Of a stretch of DNA of 10,210 nucleotides, positions 173 to 9,095 are shown one piece after another. A program made the translations under genes and the position numbers. Numbering within the stretch: position 1 is the stretch's first letter; the number at the start of each line of letters is the position of its first letter. The stretch covers positions 1-10,210 of the forward strand of contig JAGUYV010000140.1 in NCBI GenBank assembly GCA_020061125.1, given 5' to 3'. The notes below the pieces were generated by a model. It made no database searches and was not told the origin of the DNA. It saw only the letters and a list, made by a program, of their open reading frames with translations. The stretch comes from a bacterium. Lineage in GTDB: Bacteria; UBP15; UBA6099; DSWB01.

Positions 173-180
173 AAAGGAGG
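173..180 (+). promoter_or_regulatory. Ribosome binding site deciding the flagellin TTG start
   Basis: AAAGGAGG ends at 180, eight bases before the TTG at 189-191. This TTG is the first possible start in the flagellin frame that yields the conserved N-terminus beginning M-V-I-N-T-N. An ATG at 182-184 lies only one base after the GGAGG and is in a different frame, so it cannot be the flagellin start as the sequence stands. Confidence 0.75.
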
Positions 181-188
181 AATGCGGC

Positions 189-1742
189 TTGGTTATCAAT
201 ACCAATTTATCAGCCATGATGGCGAACACGCAGGCGTTGCGCATTCGCGGCGAGGTGGGCCGCCACCTCGAACGCCTGTCCACGGGACTGAAAATCAACC
301 GGGGGGGCGACGACCCCTCGGGCCTTGGCATCGCCCGCAACACGCAGGCCCAGGTGCGCGGCACGAACACCGCCATCCACAATGTCGAGGAAGGCGTCCA
401 TGTTTACAACATGCGCGATGCGCTTCTGGCCGAAGATCAGGAAATGGTGCAGCGCATCCGCGACCTGGCCGTGCGCAGCGCCAACGAGGCCACCCTCACC
501 ACCCGGGACCGCCAGGCCATGCAGCAGGAAGTGGCCAAACTCATGGAGCAGATCAATCAGGCGGCCTACGCCTCACCCAAAGTCGGCGGCACCGCCCGTC
601 TGCTCTACGCCCCCAGCAAGCTCGATGTGATCTGGGTTCTCGACGCCACGGCCAGCATGATCCCTGCGGCCACGGCCCTTCGCGACGCCTCCGCACAGAT
701 GTTCAACGAGTTCCAGGCAAACGGTCTTGATGTCCGCATGAATGTCACGCCTTTTGCATTCGACATTTTCCAGACATGGGGCGCCAACTCCGTATCATGG
801 AGTTTCCAGCAGGACGCCGTTTCATTCCAGGACGATGTTGATGAGATCGTCGGCATGATAACAACGGGCACCGGCGGGCTGGAAAACGGACTGACCGCAA
901 TTAATAACACTATTGACAATGGCCAGCTTGGCGGCGCTTTCAGAACAGGCAGCGATGTGACGCGGGCGATCATTCTGATAACTGACGAGGATGCTGATGA
1001 TTTTGGCGATCCAATAGATGTCAACGCAAACATGACTCCAATTGGAATTGCCGCGCGCGCCGCGCTGACCGCAAAACTCCAGGCAAATGACATCACGATG
1101 CATGCGGTGGGCATGGAACGATATCTGATCTGGCCGGCCCAGTGGCCCGCGCCGGACGAGGACTACGCCGAAGTGGCCCGCAACACCGGCGGTTCGGTCA
1201 TCACGCTCGAAGACGCCGGAACCGCCTGGACCACGCAGATCACCAGCGCGCTCAAGGCTTCCTATGCGGACTGGGACGCGGAGTTCCAGGTCGGCCCGGA
1301 CAGCGGCATGAACGACAGCGGCCACAGCATGACCTTCACATTCAGCTCCGTGACCACGGACTCCATGGGCCTGGCCAGCGCCAATGTGGCGACCACGGCC
1401 GGAGCGCAGGCCACCATTGACATCGCCAACAACGCTCTGGAATGGTTGAGCAACGAGCGCGCCGAAACCGGCTGGGCCGTGGAGCGCCTCAAGCACATCG
1501 CCAACGACCTCGCCGCCATGTCCATCGGCAACTCCGCGTTTAAATCCGGCCTCGAAGACGCGCTCATGGATCAGGAAATCGTGGACATGACCATCCAGAA
1601 CATGTTGAGCAACACCGTGGCCGCGGCGCAGGCACAAGCCAACGCCACGGTCGAGACTGCGTCACAGTTCATCAGCGTGGTGAGCAACTCGGAAAACCTC
1701 GACCAGTTCAGCGGCATCTTCACGGTGCAGCAGACGCTGTAG
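189..1742 (+). CDS. Flagellin with an inserted von Willebrand factor A domain
   Basis: 517-residue filament protein, exported unfolded through the flagellar type III channel. Residues 1-140 are a typical flagellin D0/D1 N-terminus (VINTNLSAM, LSTGLKIN, DDPSGLGIA, RDLAVRSAN). Residues 365-517 are the returning D1/D0 half (FQVGPDSG, LSNERAETG, RLKHIANDL, AQAQAN). Between them, about 145-358, lies a VWA domain in place of the usual variable D2/D3 region: strand and MIDAS motif VIWVLDATASM (D152, T154, S156), a TGTGG loop with T228, and ILITDEDAD with D266. From family knowledge these residues bind a divalent metal that mediates ligand contact. DxTxS replaces the classical DxSxS, a common variant. 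The protein has no cysteine, and the C-terminus runs about 20 residues beyond the usual end. TTG at 189 is chosen for the AAAGGAGG eight bases upstream. Bases 901-1020, inside the VWA domain, are far less GC-rich than the flanks. The gene stands alone. The two-part reading is secure; the role of the VWA domain is inferred. Confidence 0.93.
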   Translation: MVINTNLSAMMANTQALRIRGEVGRHLERLSTGLKINRGGDDPSGLGIARNTQAQVRGTNTAIHNVEEGVHVYNMRDALLAEDQEMVQRIRDLAVRSANEATLTTRDRQAMQQEVAKLMEQINQAAYASPKVGGTARLLYAPSKLDVIWVLDATASMIPAATALRDASAQMFNEFQANGLDVRMNVTPFAFDIFQTWGANSVSWSFQQDAVSFQDDVDEIVGMITTGTGGLENGLTAINNTIDNGQLGGAFRTGSDVTRAIILITDEDADDFGDPIDVNANMTPIGIAARAALTAKLQANDITMHAVGMERYLIWPAQWPAPDEDYAEVARNTGGSVITLEDAGTAWTTQITSALKASYADWDAEFQVGPDSGMNDSGHSMTFTFSSVTTDSMGLASANVATTAGAQATIDIANNALEWLSNERAETGWAVERLKHIANDLAAMSIGNSAFKSGLEDALMDQEIVDMTIQNMLSNTVAAAQAQANATVETASQFISVVSNSENLDQFSGIFTVQQTL

Positions 1743-1769: not shown

Positions 1770-1814
1770 AAAACCCCGCCAGTTTTTCCGGCGGGGTTTT
1801 TGATTTTTCGTGAA
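1770..1814 (+). terminator. Intrinsic terminator of the flagellin gene, probably bidirectional
   Basis: An 11-bp perfect stem pairs AAAACCCCGCC (1770-1780) with GGCGGGGTTTT (1790-1800) around a 9-base loop. It is followed by more T-rich sequence on the plus strand and starts 28 bases after the flagellin stop. The A run at the stem base gives a U run on the other strand, so it can also end the convergent minus-strand transcript, whose last stop codon is at 1828. Confidence 0.9.
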
Positions 1815-4579: not shown

Positions 4580-6835
4580 ATGAGAGGCTTTTCACGATAC
4601 GGCTTCCGGGCGGCGGCCGCGGCGCTGTTGTTCGCGTTCGCGCTGAACGGGTGCGGCGGAGGCGGGGGCGGTTCGGTCATCGTCGCCACCAATCCGTTCG
4701 GGGGCACGGAATTCGGCGGCATCTCCGGCACACTTGATGTGCCGATCAGCACTTACCGGACACTTGTCCCGGATTCGGGCAACACCCTCGACGCGCCCAT
4801 CAGCATCGAACCGGAACAGCGGCGCGCTGTGGACCGCCTGGCCGCATCCGCGCCGCCGGCGCAGGCTTGCGAGGGCGGCAGTTTCGCTCCCGGCCAGTTG
4901 ATTGTGAAACTGCCCGGAGGCATGGCCGCCGCGGAGTTCGCGGCCGCGCACAACCTGTCCGTGATGCGGTCCGGGGCTTCGGGCATGGGCCTGTTCTCAC
5001 TGGACCTCGGAGGGCTGGACGGAACAGCGGCGCAGGCGATCACGCGCCAGGTGTGCAGAACCCTGTCCGGCGCGGCGGGAGCAGAGTTCGTGGACCTCAA
5101 TCATGTGCGCCAGAAAACCTCCACGACGCCCAACGATCCGCATTTTTCCAGCCAGTGGCATTACACGCAAATCAACCTGCCCCAGGCATGGGACATCACC
5201 ACGGGCAGCAGCAATGTGACCGTGGCCGTGCTTGACACCGGCATCGTGTCCGGGCACACGGACCTGGACGGAAAGCTGGTGTCGGGATACGACTTCGTGA
5301 GCGACAGCGAATCGGCGTGCGATGGGAACGGCATAGACCCCGACCCCGAGGACAGGGCGGATTCGCGCTGTTCAGCAGGCGCCATTTCGCAACAGGACCC
5401 GCGCCACTCGGGCTACCACGGCACGCATGTGGCGGGCACCGTGGCCGCGGAAACCAACAACGGAGCGGGCGTGGCGGGCGTGAGCTGGTCCGCGCGCATC
5501 ATGCCCGTGCGCGTGCTCGGCGCCAGCGGCGGCACCGATTACGACATCCAGCAGGGCATGCTCTACGCCGCGGGACTGGCCAACAACTCCGGCATCACCC
5601 TGGCCACCCCCGCGCACATCATCAACATGAGCCTCGGCGGCGAACCCGGCGACCCCTGCCCTTCGTCCTATCAAACCATCATCAACCAGATCGCCGCGCT
5701 CAACATTCCGATCTTTGTGGCCGCGGGCAACGAGGGAGCCTCCGCCCTCAACCCCCTGGCCGTGTGCAACAATGTATTCGCCGTGGGCGCCGTGGGCCGC
5801 GACAGCGTGCGCGCGCCCTACTCCAACATCGGTTCTGGACTTGACATCACGGCGCCCGGCGGCAACCAGCAATATGCGTCCAGCGACGGCGTGTTGAGCG
5901 CCCTGCGCAACGACACAACGAGCGTGAACACGGCCTACGGCTATTATCAGGGCACCTCCATGGCCACGCCGCACGCCGCGGGCGTGGCTGCTCTCATGCT
6001 CGCCGTGAATCCCGCCATCACTCCAACCCAGATTCTGTCCATCTTCCAGCAAACATCCACGGACCTCGGCTCGACTGGCTATGACACCACCTACGGCTAC
6101 GGACTTGTCAACGCGTACAAAAGCGTGGTCGAGGCCCAGCGGCTCGTGACCACGCCGTCGGAGCCGAACCAGCCCGTACTCGCCGTGTCAACGGACAGGC
6201 TCTATTTCGCATCCAGCGAAACCACCAAGACCGTGATCATCACCAACACCGGAACCCAGACCCTGACCCTCACCAGCGTGAGCAATTCCGAAAACTCGGG
6301 CGGCAACTGGATGAGCACGAGCACTTCTTCCGGCGCAACATCCATCACCCTCACGGTGAGCGTCAGCCGCACAGGCCTGGCCGCGGGATCGTACACCGGA
6401 ACCATCAGCATCGTGTCCAACGGCGGCTCGGCCAGCATCCCCGTCACAATGGCCGTGCAAACCTCCGCAGTGTCATCCCCCGCCGGTTGCGTGGACACCA
6501 GGCTCTGGATCCTGGCCGTGGACCCGGACTCGTACGACACAACCGGTCAGGCCGTGGTTTCCGCGTCAGGCGGCTCCTATTCCATGATCGAAGTGCTTCC
6601 GGGCAGCCACTATGTCGTGGCGGGCACGGATTGCAACGACGACGGTGAAATCTGCGATCAGGACACGGATTACTGCGGCATCTATCCCATCTGGACGGAC
6701 GCCAGAACAATTTCGGTCACCAAACAGCAATACACCTCCAGCGTCTCGTTCGCAGTCACCCAGACCGTGGCCGCGCGCCCGGCGGGCGGATCGTCAAACG
6801 CCCTGTCCGGCCGCTCATTCAAGAAACTCAAATAA
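4580..6835 (+). CDS. Subtilisin-like (S8) serine protease lipoprotein with C-terminal beta modules
   Basis: 751-residue cell-envelope or surface endopeptidase. The N-terminus is a lipoprotein signal: a hydrophobic run ending A-L-N-G-C with C25 as the lipidated residue (Asn before Gly is unusual), followed by six glycines as a tether. Residues 105-170 (PGQLIVKL to FVDLNHVRQ) look like an inhibitory propeptide. The S8 domain (about 185-510) has the full catalytic set: D219 in VAVLDTGI, H280 in HGTHVAGT, oxyanion N384 in VAAGNEG, S460 in GTSMATPHAAG. Residues 534-627 form a BACON-like beta-sandwich (RLYFASSETTKTVIITNTG to GSASIPVTMAV). A C-terminal module (about 637-740) carries C637, C685, C692 and C699 in an Asp-rich context that might bind calcium. 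AAGGAG lies seven bases before the ATG. Own candidate promoter and terminator, so probably monocistronic. Substrate unknown; degradation of external protein or processing of surface proteins are both possible. Confidence 0.93.
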   Translation: MRGFSRYGFRAAAAALLFAFALNGCGGGGGGSVIVATNPFGGTEFGGISGTLDVPISTYRTLVPDSGNTLDAPISIEPEQRRAVDRLAASAPPAQACEGGSFAPGQLIVKLPGGMAAAEFAAAHNLSVMRSGASGMGLFSLDLGGLDGTAAQAITRQVCRTLSGAAGAEFVDLNHVRQKTSTTPNDPHFSSQWHYTQINLPQAWDITTGSSNVTVAVLDTGIVSGHTDLDGKLVSGYDFVSDSESACDGNGIDPDPEDRADSRCSAGAISQQDPRHSGYHGTHVAGTVAAETNNGAGVAGVSWSARIMPVRVLGASGGTDYDIQQGMLYAAGLANNSGITLATPAHIINMSLGGEPGDPCPSSYQTIINQIAALNIPIFVAAGNEGASALNPLAVCNNVFAVGAVGRDSVRAPYSNIGSGLDITAPGGNQQYASSDGVLSALRNDTTSVNTAYGYYQGTSMATPHAAGVAALMLAVNPAITPTQILSIFQQTSTDLGSTGYDTTYGYGLVNAYKSVVEAQRLVTTPSEPNQPVLAVSTDRLYFASSETTKTVIITNTGTQTLTLTSVSNSENSGGNWMSTSTSSGATSITLTVSVSRTGLAAGSYTGTISIVSNGGSASIPVTMAVQTSAVSSPAGCVDTRLWILAVDPDSYDTTGQAVVSASGGSYSMIEVLPGSHYVVAGTDCNDDGEICDQDTDYCGIYPIWTDARTISVTKQQYTSSVSFAVTQTVAARPAGGSSNALSGRSFKKLK

Positions 6836-7088: not shown

Positions 7089-9095
7089 ATGAGACGGGCA
7101 GTAGTGATTGTGATGCTTTGCGCCTTGCTTGCCGCGCCCGGCGCGGCGCTGGCCCAGGACGAACCGCTCGACCTGGGCGATGTGGTCATCACCGCAACGA
7201 AGACGCCTACGCAAATTGAAAATGTAACACAAAAGGTGGATGTGGTGTCGGAACAGGAGATCGGCCGTCTGATTCTGGGTAACGGGAATGTGGCCGAACT
7301 CTTGAGCTGGCAGCCGGGAGTGTACACCAGCGTGCTGTCGCGCAACGACGCCAACTGGGGTTCCTACGGCAGCATCGGTCCCAAGTACAACACTTTCATG
7401 CTGGACGGCCTGCCCGTGGATTCCTTCGTGGACGCGCAGACCCTGGACCCCATGATTTTCCAGCGCGTGGAAACCCAGCGCGGGCCGGCTTCCGTGCTGT
7501 ACAGCAATTACCTGTCCCAGGACTTCGCGGGCAACCAGGCGCCCCTGGCCGGAACCACGAACCTGATTCTGCGCGAAACCGTGGAAGCGCCCATGACCCG
7601 CATCTCCGCGGGTTACGGCTCCTACAACACCTACAAAGGCCGGTACTATCATCAGACAAAATCCGGCGACGACCTGCACCTCATGGTTGGCGCGGACTAC
7701 GAGAAATCCGACTACACCAGCTATGGCGCGCCCAATTCCTGGCTGGACATGACAAAAAAACCGGACTTCAAGAAGTCCAAAATCTATGTGCGCACCGCGC
7801 AGGTCTTCAGCGGCCCGGATCACAAGCTGACCCTTTTCGCCAACCACGCGCAGCATGACTACAGCCTCGGCCGCCCGTATCGCGATCACAACCACGACTA
7901 CGATCTGCTCAACGCCGCATACCAGGTTCCGCTGGACGAGCGGCTCACCGGACAGTTCAAAATCGGCTACCGTGACTATGACCGCTCCTGGCAGAACGAC
8001 AATTACGACCCCACGGCCGTAATCAAGGACTACAGCCTGGCCTCGATCAGCGGCGTGAAGCAGAAGATCCTGCCCGTGGACGCATCCCTGGCGTGGAAGC
8101 TGAACGGCAACAGCCTGCTCACCGCGGGCGTGGACTGGCAGAGCGCGGAATACAAGACCTGGACCAAAACCACGGCCGGCGCCATATCCACGGACAACGA
8201 CGCCACGGCCAAACAGTACGGGATTTATATTCAGGAAGATGTGGCGCGGGACGAATTCGTGTGGCGCCTGGGCGCGCGCTACCAGCACATCAACATTGAC
8301 ATAGACCGCGTACAGGGCGCCGCGCCCGGACAGAGCAGCCGCTCATGGAACGAGTTCCTGTGGAGCGCGGGCATGCGGTGGAAACCCGAGGGCCGCGCGT
8401 GGTCCCTGTTCTCCAACGCGGGCACGAGCTTCATGGCCCCCTCCCTGAAATCCACGGGCGGCACCATCCCCACGGGCAGCGCCGCCAACGGCCAGCTCCC
8501 CAATCCGGCCCTGCAGCCCGAGGAGGGCATGGCCCTGGACCTGGGCATTGACTACGCCATCAGCGAAGTCCAGAACATGGGCCTGCGCCTGTTCTACAAC
8601 AAGGTGGATGACGCCATCCTCGACAATGTGGTCAGCGCGGTTCCCTCGCAGACCATGTCCGTGAACGCGGGCGAACTCAAATCCTGGGGCGTGGAATTCG
8701 AGTACGAGCACGATGTGTGGTTCGCCAACTTCACATGGAGCAAGTCCGAAATCAGCAACCCACTGGACGCGAACCAGGACGGGAACGAGGCTACCTTCGT
8801 GCCCTCCACCACGGCCAATATCGGCGGCACATTTGATCTGGGCAAAGGATGGTCCGCCAGCCCGTACCTGCGCATCACGGGCGGCATCTACGACAGCACG
8901 GACAAGACCTCCCGCACGCGCTTCAAGGGCTACCAGGTCATGAATCTGAAGATCCAGAAGGCGTTCAGCCGCGCGGCGCGCGACACCACATGGACCCTGG
9001 ATCTGTACAACCTGCTCGACAAAGAGTTCAGTATGCCGTGGGCGTTCAAGGATCCGGGCTTTTCTTTCACGCTCGGCGCCGAGATCGCCATGTAA
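7089..9095 (+). CDS. TonB-dependent outer-membrane receptor
   Basis: 668-residue outer-membrane beta-barrel that imports a scarce ligand such as a ferric siderophore, haem or corrinoid using TonB energy. Residues 1-22 are a signal peptide ending A-L-A. The TonB box is DVVITATKT (31-39). The plug (about 41-165) contains NTFMLDGLPV and the conserved RGPASVLY (131-138). After RGPASVLY the plug has a longer loop, SNYLSQDFAGNQAPLAGT, before the final plug strand TNLILRE, unlike the short form seen in BtuB or FepA. The barrel (about 170-668) shows alternating aromatic strands and a late DLYNLLDKEF motif, and ends in FSFTLGAEIAM. AAGGAGG (7075-7081) lies seven bases before ATG 7089, which beats the upstream in-frame ATG at 7002. 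It is followed after 91 bases by a periplasmic-binding-type lipoprotein gene, which supports a role in metal-chelate uptake. The exact ligand is not readable. Confidence 0.93.
   Translation: MRRAVVIVMLCALLAAPGAALAQDEPLDLGDVVITATKTPTQIENVTQKVDVVSEQEIGRLILGNGNVAELLSWQPGVYTSVLSRNDANWGSYGSIGPKYNTFMLDGLPVDSFVDAQTLDPMIFQRVETQRGPASVLYSNYLSQDFAGNQAPLAGTTNLILRETVEAPMTRISAGYGSYNTYKGRYYHQTKSGDDLHLMVGADYEKSDYTSYGAPNSWLDMTKKPDFKKSKIYVRTAQVFSGPDHKLTLFANHAQHDYSLGRPYRDHNHDYDLLNAAYQVPLDERLTGQFKIGYRDYDRSWQNDNYDPTAVIKDYSLASISGVKQKILPVDASLAWKLNGNSLLTAGVDWQSAEYKTWTKTTAGAISTDNDATAKQYGIYIQEDVARDEFVWRLGARYQHINIDIDRVQGAAPGQSSRSWNEFLWSAGMRWKPEGRAWSLFSNAGTSFMAPSLKSTGGTIPTGSAANGQLPNPALQPEEGMALDLGIDYAISEVQNMGLRLFYNKVDDAILDNVVSAVPSQTMSVNAGELKSWGVEFEYEHDVWFANFTWSKSEISNPLDANQDGNEATFVPSTTANIGGTFDLGKGWSASPYLRITGGIYDSTDKTSRTRFKGYQVMNLKIQKAFSRAARDTTWTLDLYNLLDKEFSMPWAFKDPGFSFTLGAEIAM

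Follow-up and report, generated by a model that had tools for sequence, protein, structure and literature searches.

A flagellin with a von Willebrand factor A domain in its hypervariable region, and the modular flagellins of its bacterial order

The flagellin gene and its locus

The window, by which we mean the whole stretch of 10,210 bp analysed here, is one complete contig (C287) of a draft genome (G000) of 513 contigs and 4.1 Mb, 79% complete. At the contig end lies a gene (189 to 1742, forward strand) for a flagellin of 517 amino acids with a predicted von Willebrand factor A (VWA) domain. The frame is open throughout and leads from a flagellin N-terminus through the VWA domain to a flagellin C-terminus, as an earlier sequence-only reading of this DNA had described it. 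It starts with a TTG at position 189, which coincides in the alignment with the ATG starts of its orthologues; full-length orthologues are found in the genomes G001 and G006. The Shine-Dalgarno sequence AAAGGAGG (173 to 180, forward strand) is placed 8 nt 5' of the TTG, and an intrinsic terminator composed of the stem CCCCGCC...GGCGGGG and a T run (1770 to 1806, forward strand) is found downstream of the gene. This terminator was detected by folding (-19.8 kcal/mol, z -4.7) and missed by a terminator scan with a loop limit; apparently it is bidirectional and serves the convergent gene too.

Both flagellin domains are called by Pfam. The N-terminal D0/D1 (residues 3 to 124; 195 to 560, forward strand) matches PF00669 at 1.5e-19, above cut-off, and the C-terminal D1/D0 (residues 410 to 487; 1416 to 1649, forward strand) matches PF00700 at 8.8e-6, with 26.4 bits versus a cut-off of 23 bits. 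The top matches of the 517 amino acid protein in the PDB are filament flagellins (2e-27), with the C-terminal D1/D0 as second match segment. At the 125 D0/D1 positions conserved in short flagellins, 68 are retained, with 5 gaps, and both halves are kept approximately as in other flagellins with inserts. A tail of about 24 amino acids past the usual flagellin end (1668 to 1739, forward strand; alignment columns 701 to 732) is common to the three orthologues. When genome contigs were searched with the window protein only two Sporosarcina flagellins were retrieved, which match the N-terminus. By its predicted domains the window protein is an intact flagellin with a VWA domain in the hypervariable region.

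According to Pfam the genes 3' of the flagellin encode a DUF4013/zinc ribbon protein, a metallo-beta-lactamase fold protein, an SCP2 protein, a subtilase and a TonB-dependent receptor, none of them flagellar, and on this contig the flagellin gene is an orphan, remote from flagellar genes. Comparison of the window with the loci of the orthologues showed nothing in common except the flagellin. The subtilase (4580 to 6835, forward strand; Peptidase_S8, 4e-55) has a lipoprotein-like N-terminus (LNGCGG) and is followed by the TonB-dependent receptor-like gene (7089 to 9095).

Sigma-28-type sites, searched for as TAAA-N14-16-GCCGATAA with up to 2 mismatches, precede 32 of 69 flagellin-type genes versus about 2.4 in shuffled sequences, and two other VWA flagellin genes (C107 and C614) are among those with such a site. 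Neither a sigma-28 site nor any other convincing promoter was found in the 188 bases upstream of the window gene, and sigma-54 sites showed no excess before flagellins. The source genome has FliA and FliD; FlhA was found in five of the seven genomes of the order and not in the source draft, which is 79% complete.

The VWA domain and its metal site

The insert occupies about residues 138 to 357 (600 to 1259, forward strand) and its assignment is based on family-level profile matches to Pfam and the PDB. Searches with the window protein itself were poor in result: Pfam does not call VWA, with VWA_4 reaching an E value of 0.11, below cut-off, only when the middle region is the sole query, phmmer with the insert alone found nothing significant in the PDB, and AlphaFold2 on the insert from the single sequence gave a pLDDT of 36. 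This VWA is only 23 to 45% identical to those of the other family members, and as it is too divergent for Pfam the case for the domain rests on its relatives. Ten VWA flagellins were aligned, of which nine belong to the order of the window and the tenth to an outside genome (G035); eight of them match PF00092, the best at 6.8e-12. The full-length orthologue G001:C88, 48% identical to the window protein, matches VWA with 25.2 bits versus the Pfam cut-off of 23.8 bits. The order Flagellin_N, VWA, Flagellin_C expected by the sequence-only reading was thus recovered for the two outer domains in the window protein itself and for the VWA domain in the orthologue and the family. Compared to the PDB, the profile of the insert family matches collagen VI (5e-16), PTMP1 (9e-11), the fimbrial protein Mfa5 (3e-5) and integrin beta-6 (4e-5), with further matches to integrin beta-8, integrin beta-3, MIC2 and integrin alpha-1. 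We regard the VWA prediction as secure through the family.

The metal site (MIDAS) of VWA domains is composed of three loops. In the window protein loop 1 is D152-A-T154-A-S156 (DxTxS; 642 to 656, forward strand), with D152 and S156 invariant in all ten VWA flagellins, and loop 3 is D266-E-D-A-D270-D271 (984 to 1001, forward strand), an Asp followed by a family-specific acidic cluster, in which D266, D270 and D271 are equally invariant. The sequence-only reading had taken the site as D152-x-T154-x-S156, T228 and D266; D152, S156 and D266 are borne out by their invariance, while T228 was rejected, since its column is not conserved and the invariant residue of loop 2 is E232 (882 to 884, forward strand). 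The Thr of alpha-I-type sites has no counterpart in this loop, where the window protein has L231, at a position variable in the family, followed by the invariant Glu. In the profile alignment E232 falls on the Glu of the DTPEGG motif of integrin beta-6, which is the loop 2 residue of integrin-beta-type sites; in integrin beta-3 the MIDAS is formed by D119, S121, S123, E220 and D251. This alignment of the loop 2 Glu indicates that the putative metal site, D152-x-T154-x-S156, E232 and D266, is integrin-beta-like and not of the alpha-I type with Thr. The HExxH motif of gluzincins is absent from the window protein.

Relatives and the flagellin repertoire of the order

Other flagellin-VWA fusions were found, with the same architecture, in genomes of three families of the order and in the outside genome G035. 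In a profile search of 386 genomes, full-length VWA flagellins were present only in the order of the window and in one other family (that of G035) among the best four candidates per genome, a depth of scoring which makes absence elsewhere weak evidence. Further full-length profile matches, in G261, G265 and G119, proved to be ordinary flagellins whose inserts are of kinds other than VWA. G317, a relative of G035, carries a flagellin (L102:1501-3018, reverse strand) whose insert starts like those of the VWA flagellins, with DTGSAVTT in place of the MIDAS and no Pfam VWA match, and it was rejected as a member with the metal site. No VWA relatives were found in the viral contigs scanned.

A maximum likelihood tree was built on the flagellin cores, inserts excluded; several of its branches are long and the bootstrap is not fully settled. 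In this tree the window gene groups with G001_C88 and G006_C375 in a clade spanning three families (support 100/99). Insert classes cluster on the core tree, with 13 changes versus 39.5 when labels are shuffled, which points to insert classes being orthologous lineages inherited across the order. The VWA flagellin of G035 groups with the short flagellin of the same genome, which suggests that its VWA domain was captured independently.

The VWA flagellins C107 and C614 (L071:3682-5316, reverse strand, and L088:593-2128, forward strand) differ by a dN of 0.06 and a dS of 0.25, indicating purifying selection. They have a degenerate N-terminal D0, a truncated C-terminus, an intact MIDAS and a strong sigma-28 site, and perhaps they are no longer shaft subunits. 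Three shorter proteins of 435 to 442 amino acids, L136, L138 and L141 (G006:C346, G002:C203 and G001:C34), have D1 end remnants and a flagellin-like HIGP stretch without D0; their MIDAS is broken (SRSAS, DRNRW), the proteins are kept across families, and from their sequences they look like derivatives of VWA flagellins.

Source genome and order are rich in flagellins. Flagellin_N has 21 matches in the source genome and 7 to 21 per genome in the seven genomes of the order; in flagellated genomes outside the order, from a sample of 193 genomes, there are mostly 1 to 9, with the exception of G014 with 19. Several flagellin frames of G014 exceed 600 amino acids, and this genome may represent a second lineage of display flagellins. 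Short flagellins are present in several copies per genome of the order, often in tandem (e.g. C379), and alongside them ten flagellins of the source genome carry inserts of 196 to 751 amino acids. Four of these are VWA flagellins (C287, which is the window, C69, C189 and C433). The inserts of C422 and C487 are PD40-type beta-propellers, that of C423 combines TSP3-like DxDxDG repeats with PD40, C328 has an HEMTH (HExxH) motif, C180 a beta-rich-looking module and C299 an insert of 689 amino acids. Upstream of the gene with the beta-propeller-like insert (G000:C422:2135-3838, reverse strand; L022) there is a sigma-28-like site at 74 nt. Orthologous flagellins with HEMTH inserts are G000:C328 (L021), G002:C138 (L067), G003:C7 (L073) and G004:C54 (L076). 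Pfam calls no peptidase in these inserts, so this group is either flagellinolysin-like and beyond the reach of Pfam by divergence or a separate peptidase fold. A flagellin of G001 (L058:2284-3585, reverse strand) has an insert weakly matching the sugar-binding N-domains of rhamnosidase and GH2, and by this match might possibly bind carbohydrate.

Base composition differs between insert and core in several of these genes. GC at fourfold sites is 0.73 in the insert versus 0.90 in the core of the window gene (p 4e-4), 0.59 versus 0.83 in C189 (p 2e-5) and 0.37 versus 0.75 in C422 (p 7e-10), while none of 54 other long ORFs, a set unfiltered for real genes, reached a p of 1e-3. The orthologues of the window gene in G001 and G006 have no GC drop in the insert. 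The drop fits inserts acquired or exchanged in native cores, and the insert of C422 looks like a recently acquired cassette; GC-biased conversion among cores is an alternative cause of the contrast.

We tentatively propose, as something that may well be the case but of which we are not convinced, that the order uses flagellin as a general display platform. Short flagellins would form the shaft, decorated in each genome by a set of as many as about ten inherited "cassette" flagellins. Modules would be exchanged or newly gained at the D1 boundary, as is suggested by inserts which, in several genes, have a lower GC at fourfold sites. With similar reserve, the modules on display could comprise several integrin-like VWA domains, an HExxH domain, beta-propellers, TSP3-like repeats and a carbohydrate-binding-like domain. 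This repertoire of one order is a less expected observation than the single gene, and going by it the "hypervariable" region would seem able to house functional modules that are stable and inherited, beyond antigenic variation.

Function of the VWA flagellin and known systems

In our view the window protein is probably a minor flagellin in a filament of mostly short flagellins, displaying a MIDAS-bearing VWA domain for adhesion. It would leave the cell through the flagellar type III apparatus and, as the preserved D0/D1 ends suggest, would co-assemble with the short flagellins which make up most of the filament. With one half of D1 on either side of it in the chain, the VWA domain would project from the filament surface. 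By analogy with the VWA proteins PilB, Mfa5 and Bd0875 described below, the integrin-beta-type site (D152, T154, S156, E232 and D266) would hold Mg2+ or Mn2+ and could engage an acidic group on a ligand, be it a surface, a polymer, another cell or another filament, making the filament adhesive. An adhesive role, already proposed in the sequence-only reading, seems the best interpretation of a VWA domain with a conserved MIDAS-type site. Its companion idea of thousands of such binding domains per filament is unsupported: the several short flagellins per genome are the likelier bulk subunits, and as these are numerous and the window gene is an orphan without a sigma-28 site, a minor subunit is more likely.

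The VWA domain might instead make contacts within or between filaments (dimerisation, sheath or bundle) and so adjust how stiff the filament is or how the cell swims in viscous media, with no foreign ligand. For other flagellins, PMC8931119 reports that dimerisation of outer domains modulates motility, and non-enzymatic beta-rich modules as other inserts in these genomes are consistent with bulky outer shells. We nevertheless consider this unlikely, since the invariant metal-site residues exceed the needs of a spacer and several unlike modules per genome are ill-suited to one regular outer lattice.

It is more doubtful still that the window protein is not a shaft subunit at all and is located at the tip or a junction, or is set free as a secreted, monomeric adhesin that resembles flagellin. 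The C-terminal tail common to the orthologue group would face the narrow filament channel in normal packing and so counts against packing in the shaft, and an orphan gene without a sigma-28 site also agrees with such a location. C107 and C614 have lost much of D0 and three further relatives retain no more than D1-like remnants, with a broken MIDAS, so proteins of this line can be lost from the filament. However, both D0/D1 halves are retained in the window protein about as in other inserted flagellins, and its match to FlgL is weak (NCBIfam, 54 bits versus a cut-off of 127).

Inserts without a ligand of their own, whose main use would be a varied filament surface as a defence against grazers or phages that bind flagella, appear very improbable. 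The presence in a single genome of ten flagellins that bear bulky surface modules would suit this, as would inserts whose base composition is unlike that of the core in several genes, which is expected of exchanged cassettes; but the MIDAS residues are conserved while the remaining VWA diverges, and the insert classes are old orthologous lineages and not fast-changing. A mis-assembled fusion or pseudogene, suggested by a gene at a contig end in a draft of 513 contigs, is hardly conceivable, as the same architecture in independent genomes of three families refutes an assembly chimera and the open frame has a proper ribosome site and terminator.

Flagella are usually seen as propellers whose stickiness is incidental, and to our knowledge a peptidase is the only insert so far shown to work in a flagellin. 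An integrin-like VWA domain in a filament protein, retained over three families and with as many as four copies in a genome, makes specific filament-borne adhesion testable.

VWA flagellins as a kind are not new, contrary to the sequence-only reading, which knew of none described. Among 26,587 flagellins, Eckhard et al. 2017 (PMC5595980) counted 21 with a vWFA insert, which ranks eighth in frequency in their Table 1; these are built like the window protein, as Flagellin N - vWFA - Flagellin C. There they are a count in a table, the main text giving no sequences, metal site or function. In the open-access literature we found no paper studying a VWA flagellin and no description of a multi-module flagellin repertoire in one order, so that the kind is known and counted and nobody appears to have studied one. 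A supposed link between vWFA and flagellin in Paenibacillus was discarded, since vWFA there belongs to a separate secreted protein, CmoA.

Flagellinolysin (FlaMP; PMC5595980) is a working insert in a filament, that of haemolyticum, and like the window gene it has a functional module in the flagellin hypervariable region. Its module is a gluzincin peptidase with HExxH, whereas the window gene has no HExxH and C328 separately has HEMTH.

Mfa5 (PMC7835359) gives an experimental precedent for a VWA domain on a filament subunit and is itself matched by the profile of the flagellin inserts; its MIDAS has the alpha-I-type Thr, in contrast to the Glu of the flagellin family. The pilus tip adhesins Mfa5 and RrgA/GBS104, and Bd0875 of Bdellovibrio, are bacterial VWA/MIDAS adhesins of other filaments or, in one case, a lipoprotein. 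Bd0875 (PMC11003981) has a conserved Glu, E213, near its site. Integrin beta I-like domains share with the flagellin family a MIDAS of DxSxS, Glu and Asp; the flagellin VWA differs in having no ADMIDAS-like acidic pair after DxSxS, and in being bacterial and inserted in a flagellin.

The adhesive VWA-type modular type IV pilin PilB of Streptococcus sanguinis (PMC8179133) is, like the window protein, a filament subunit on which a bulky VWA domain with MIDAS has been grafted, and is a second experimental precedent beside Mfa5. PilB binds fibronectin and fibrinogen independently of metal (PMC8179133), so a conserved MIDAS is no proof of metal-dependent adhesion. The VWA domain of PilB is C-terminal and modelled at the pilus tip, whereas that of the flagellin is mid-chain and could lie along the shaft; if the display platform proposed above is true, it would be a multi-function filament comparable with the modular type IV pilins, but built on the flagellum.
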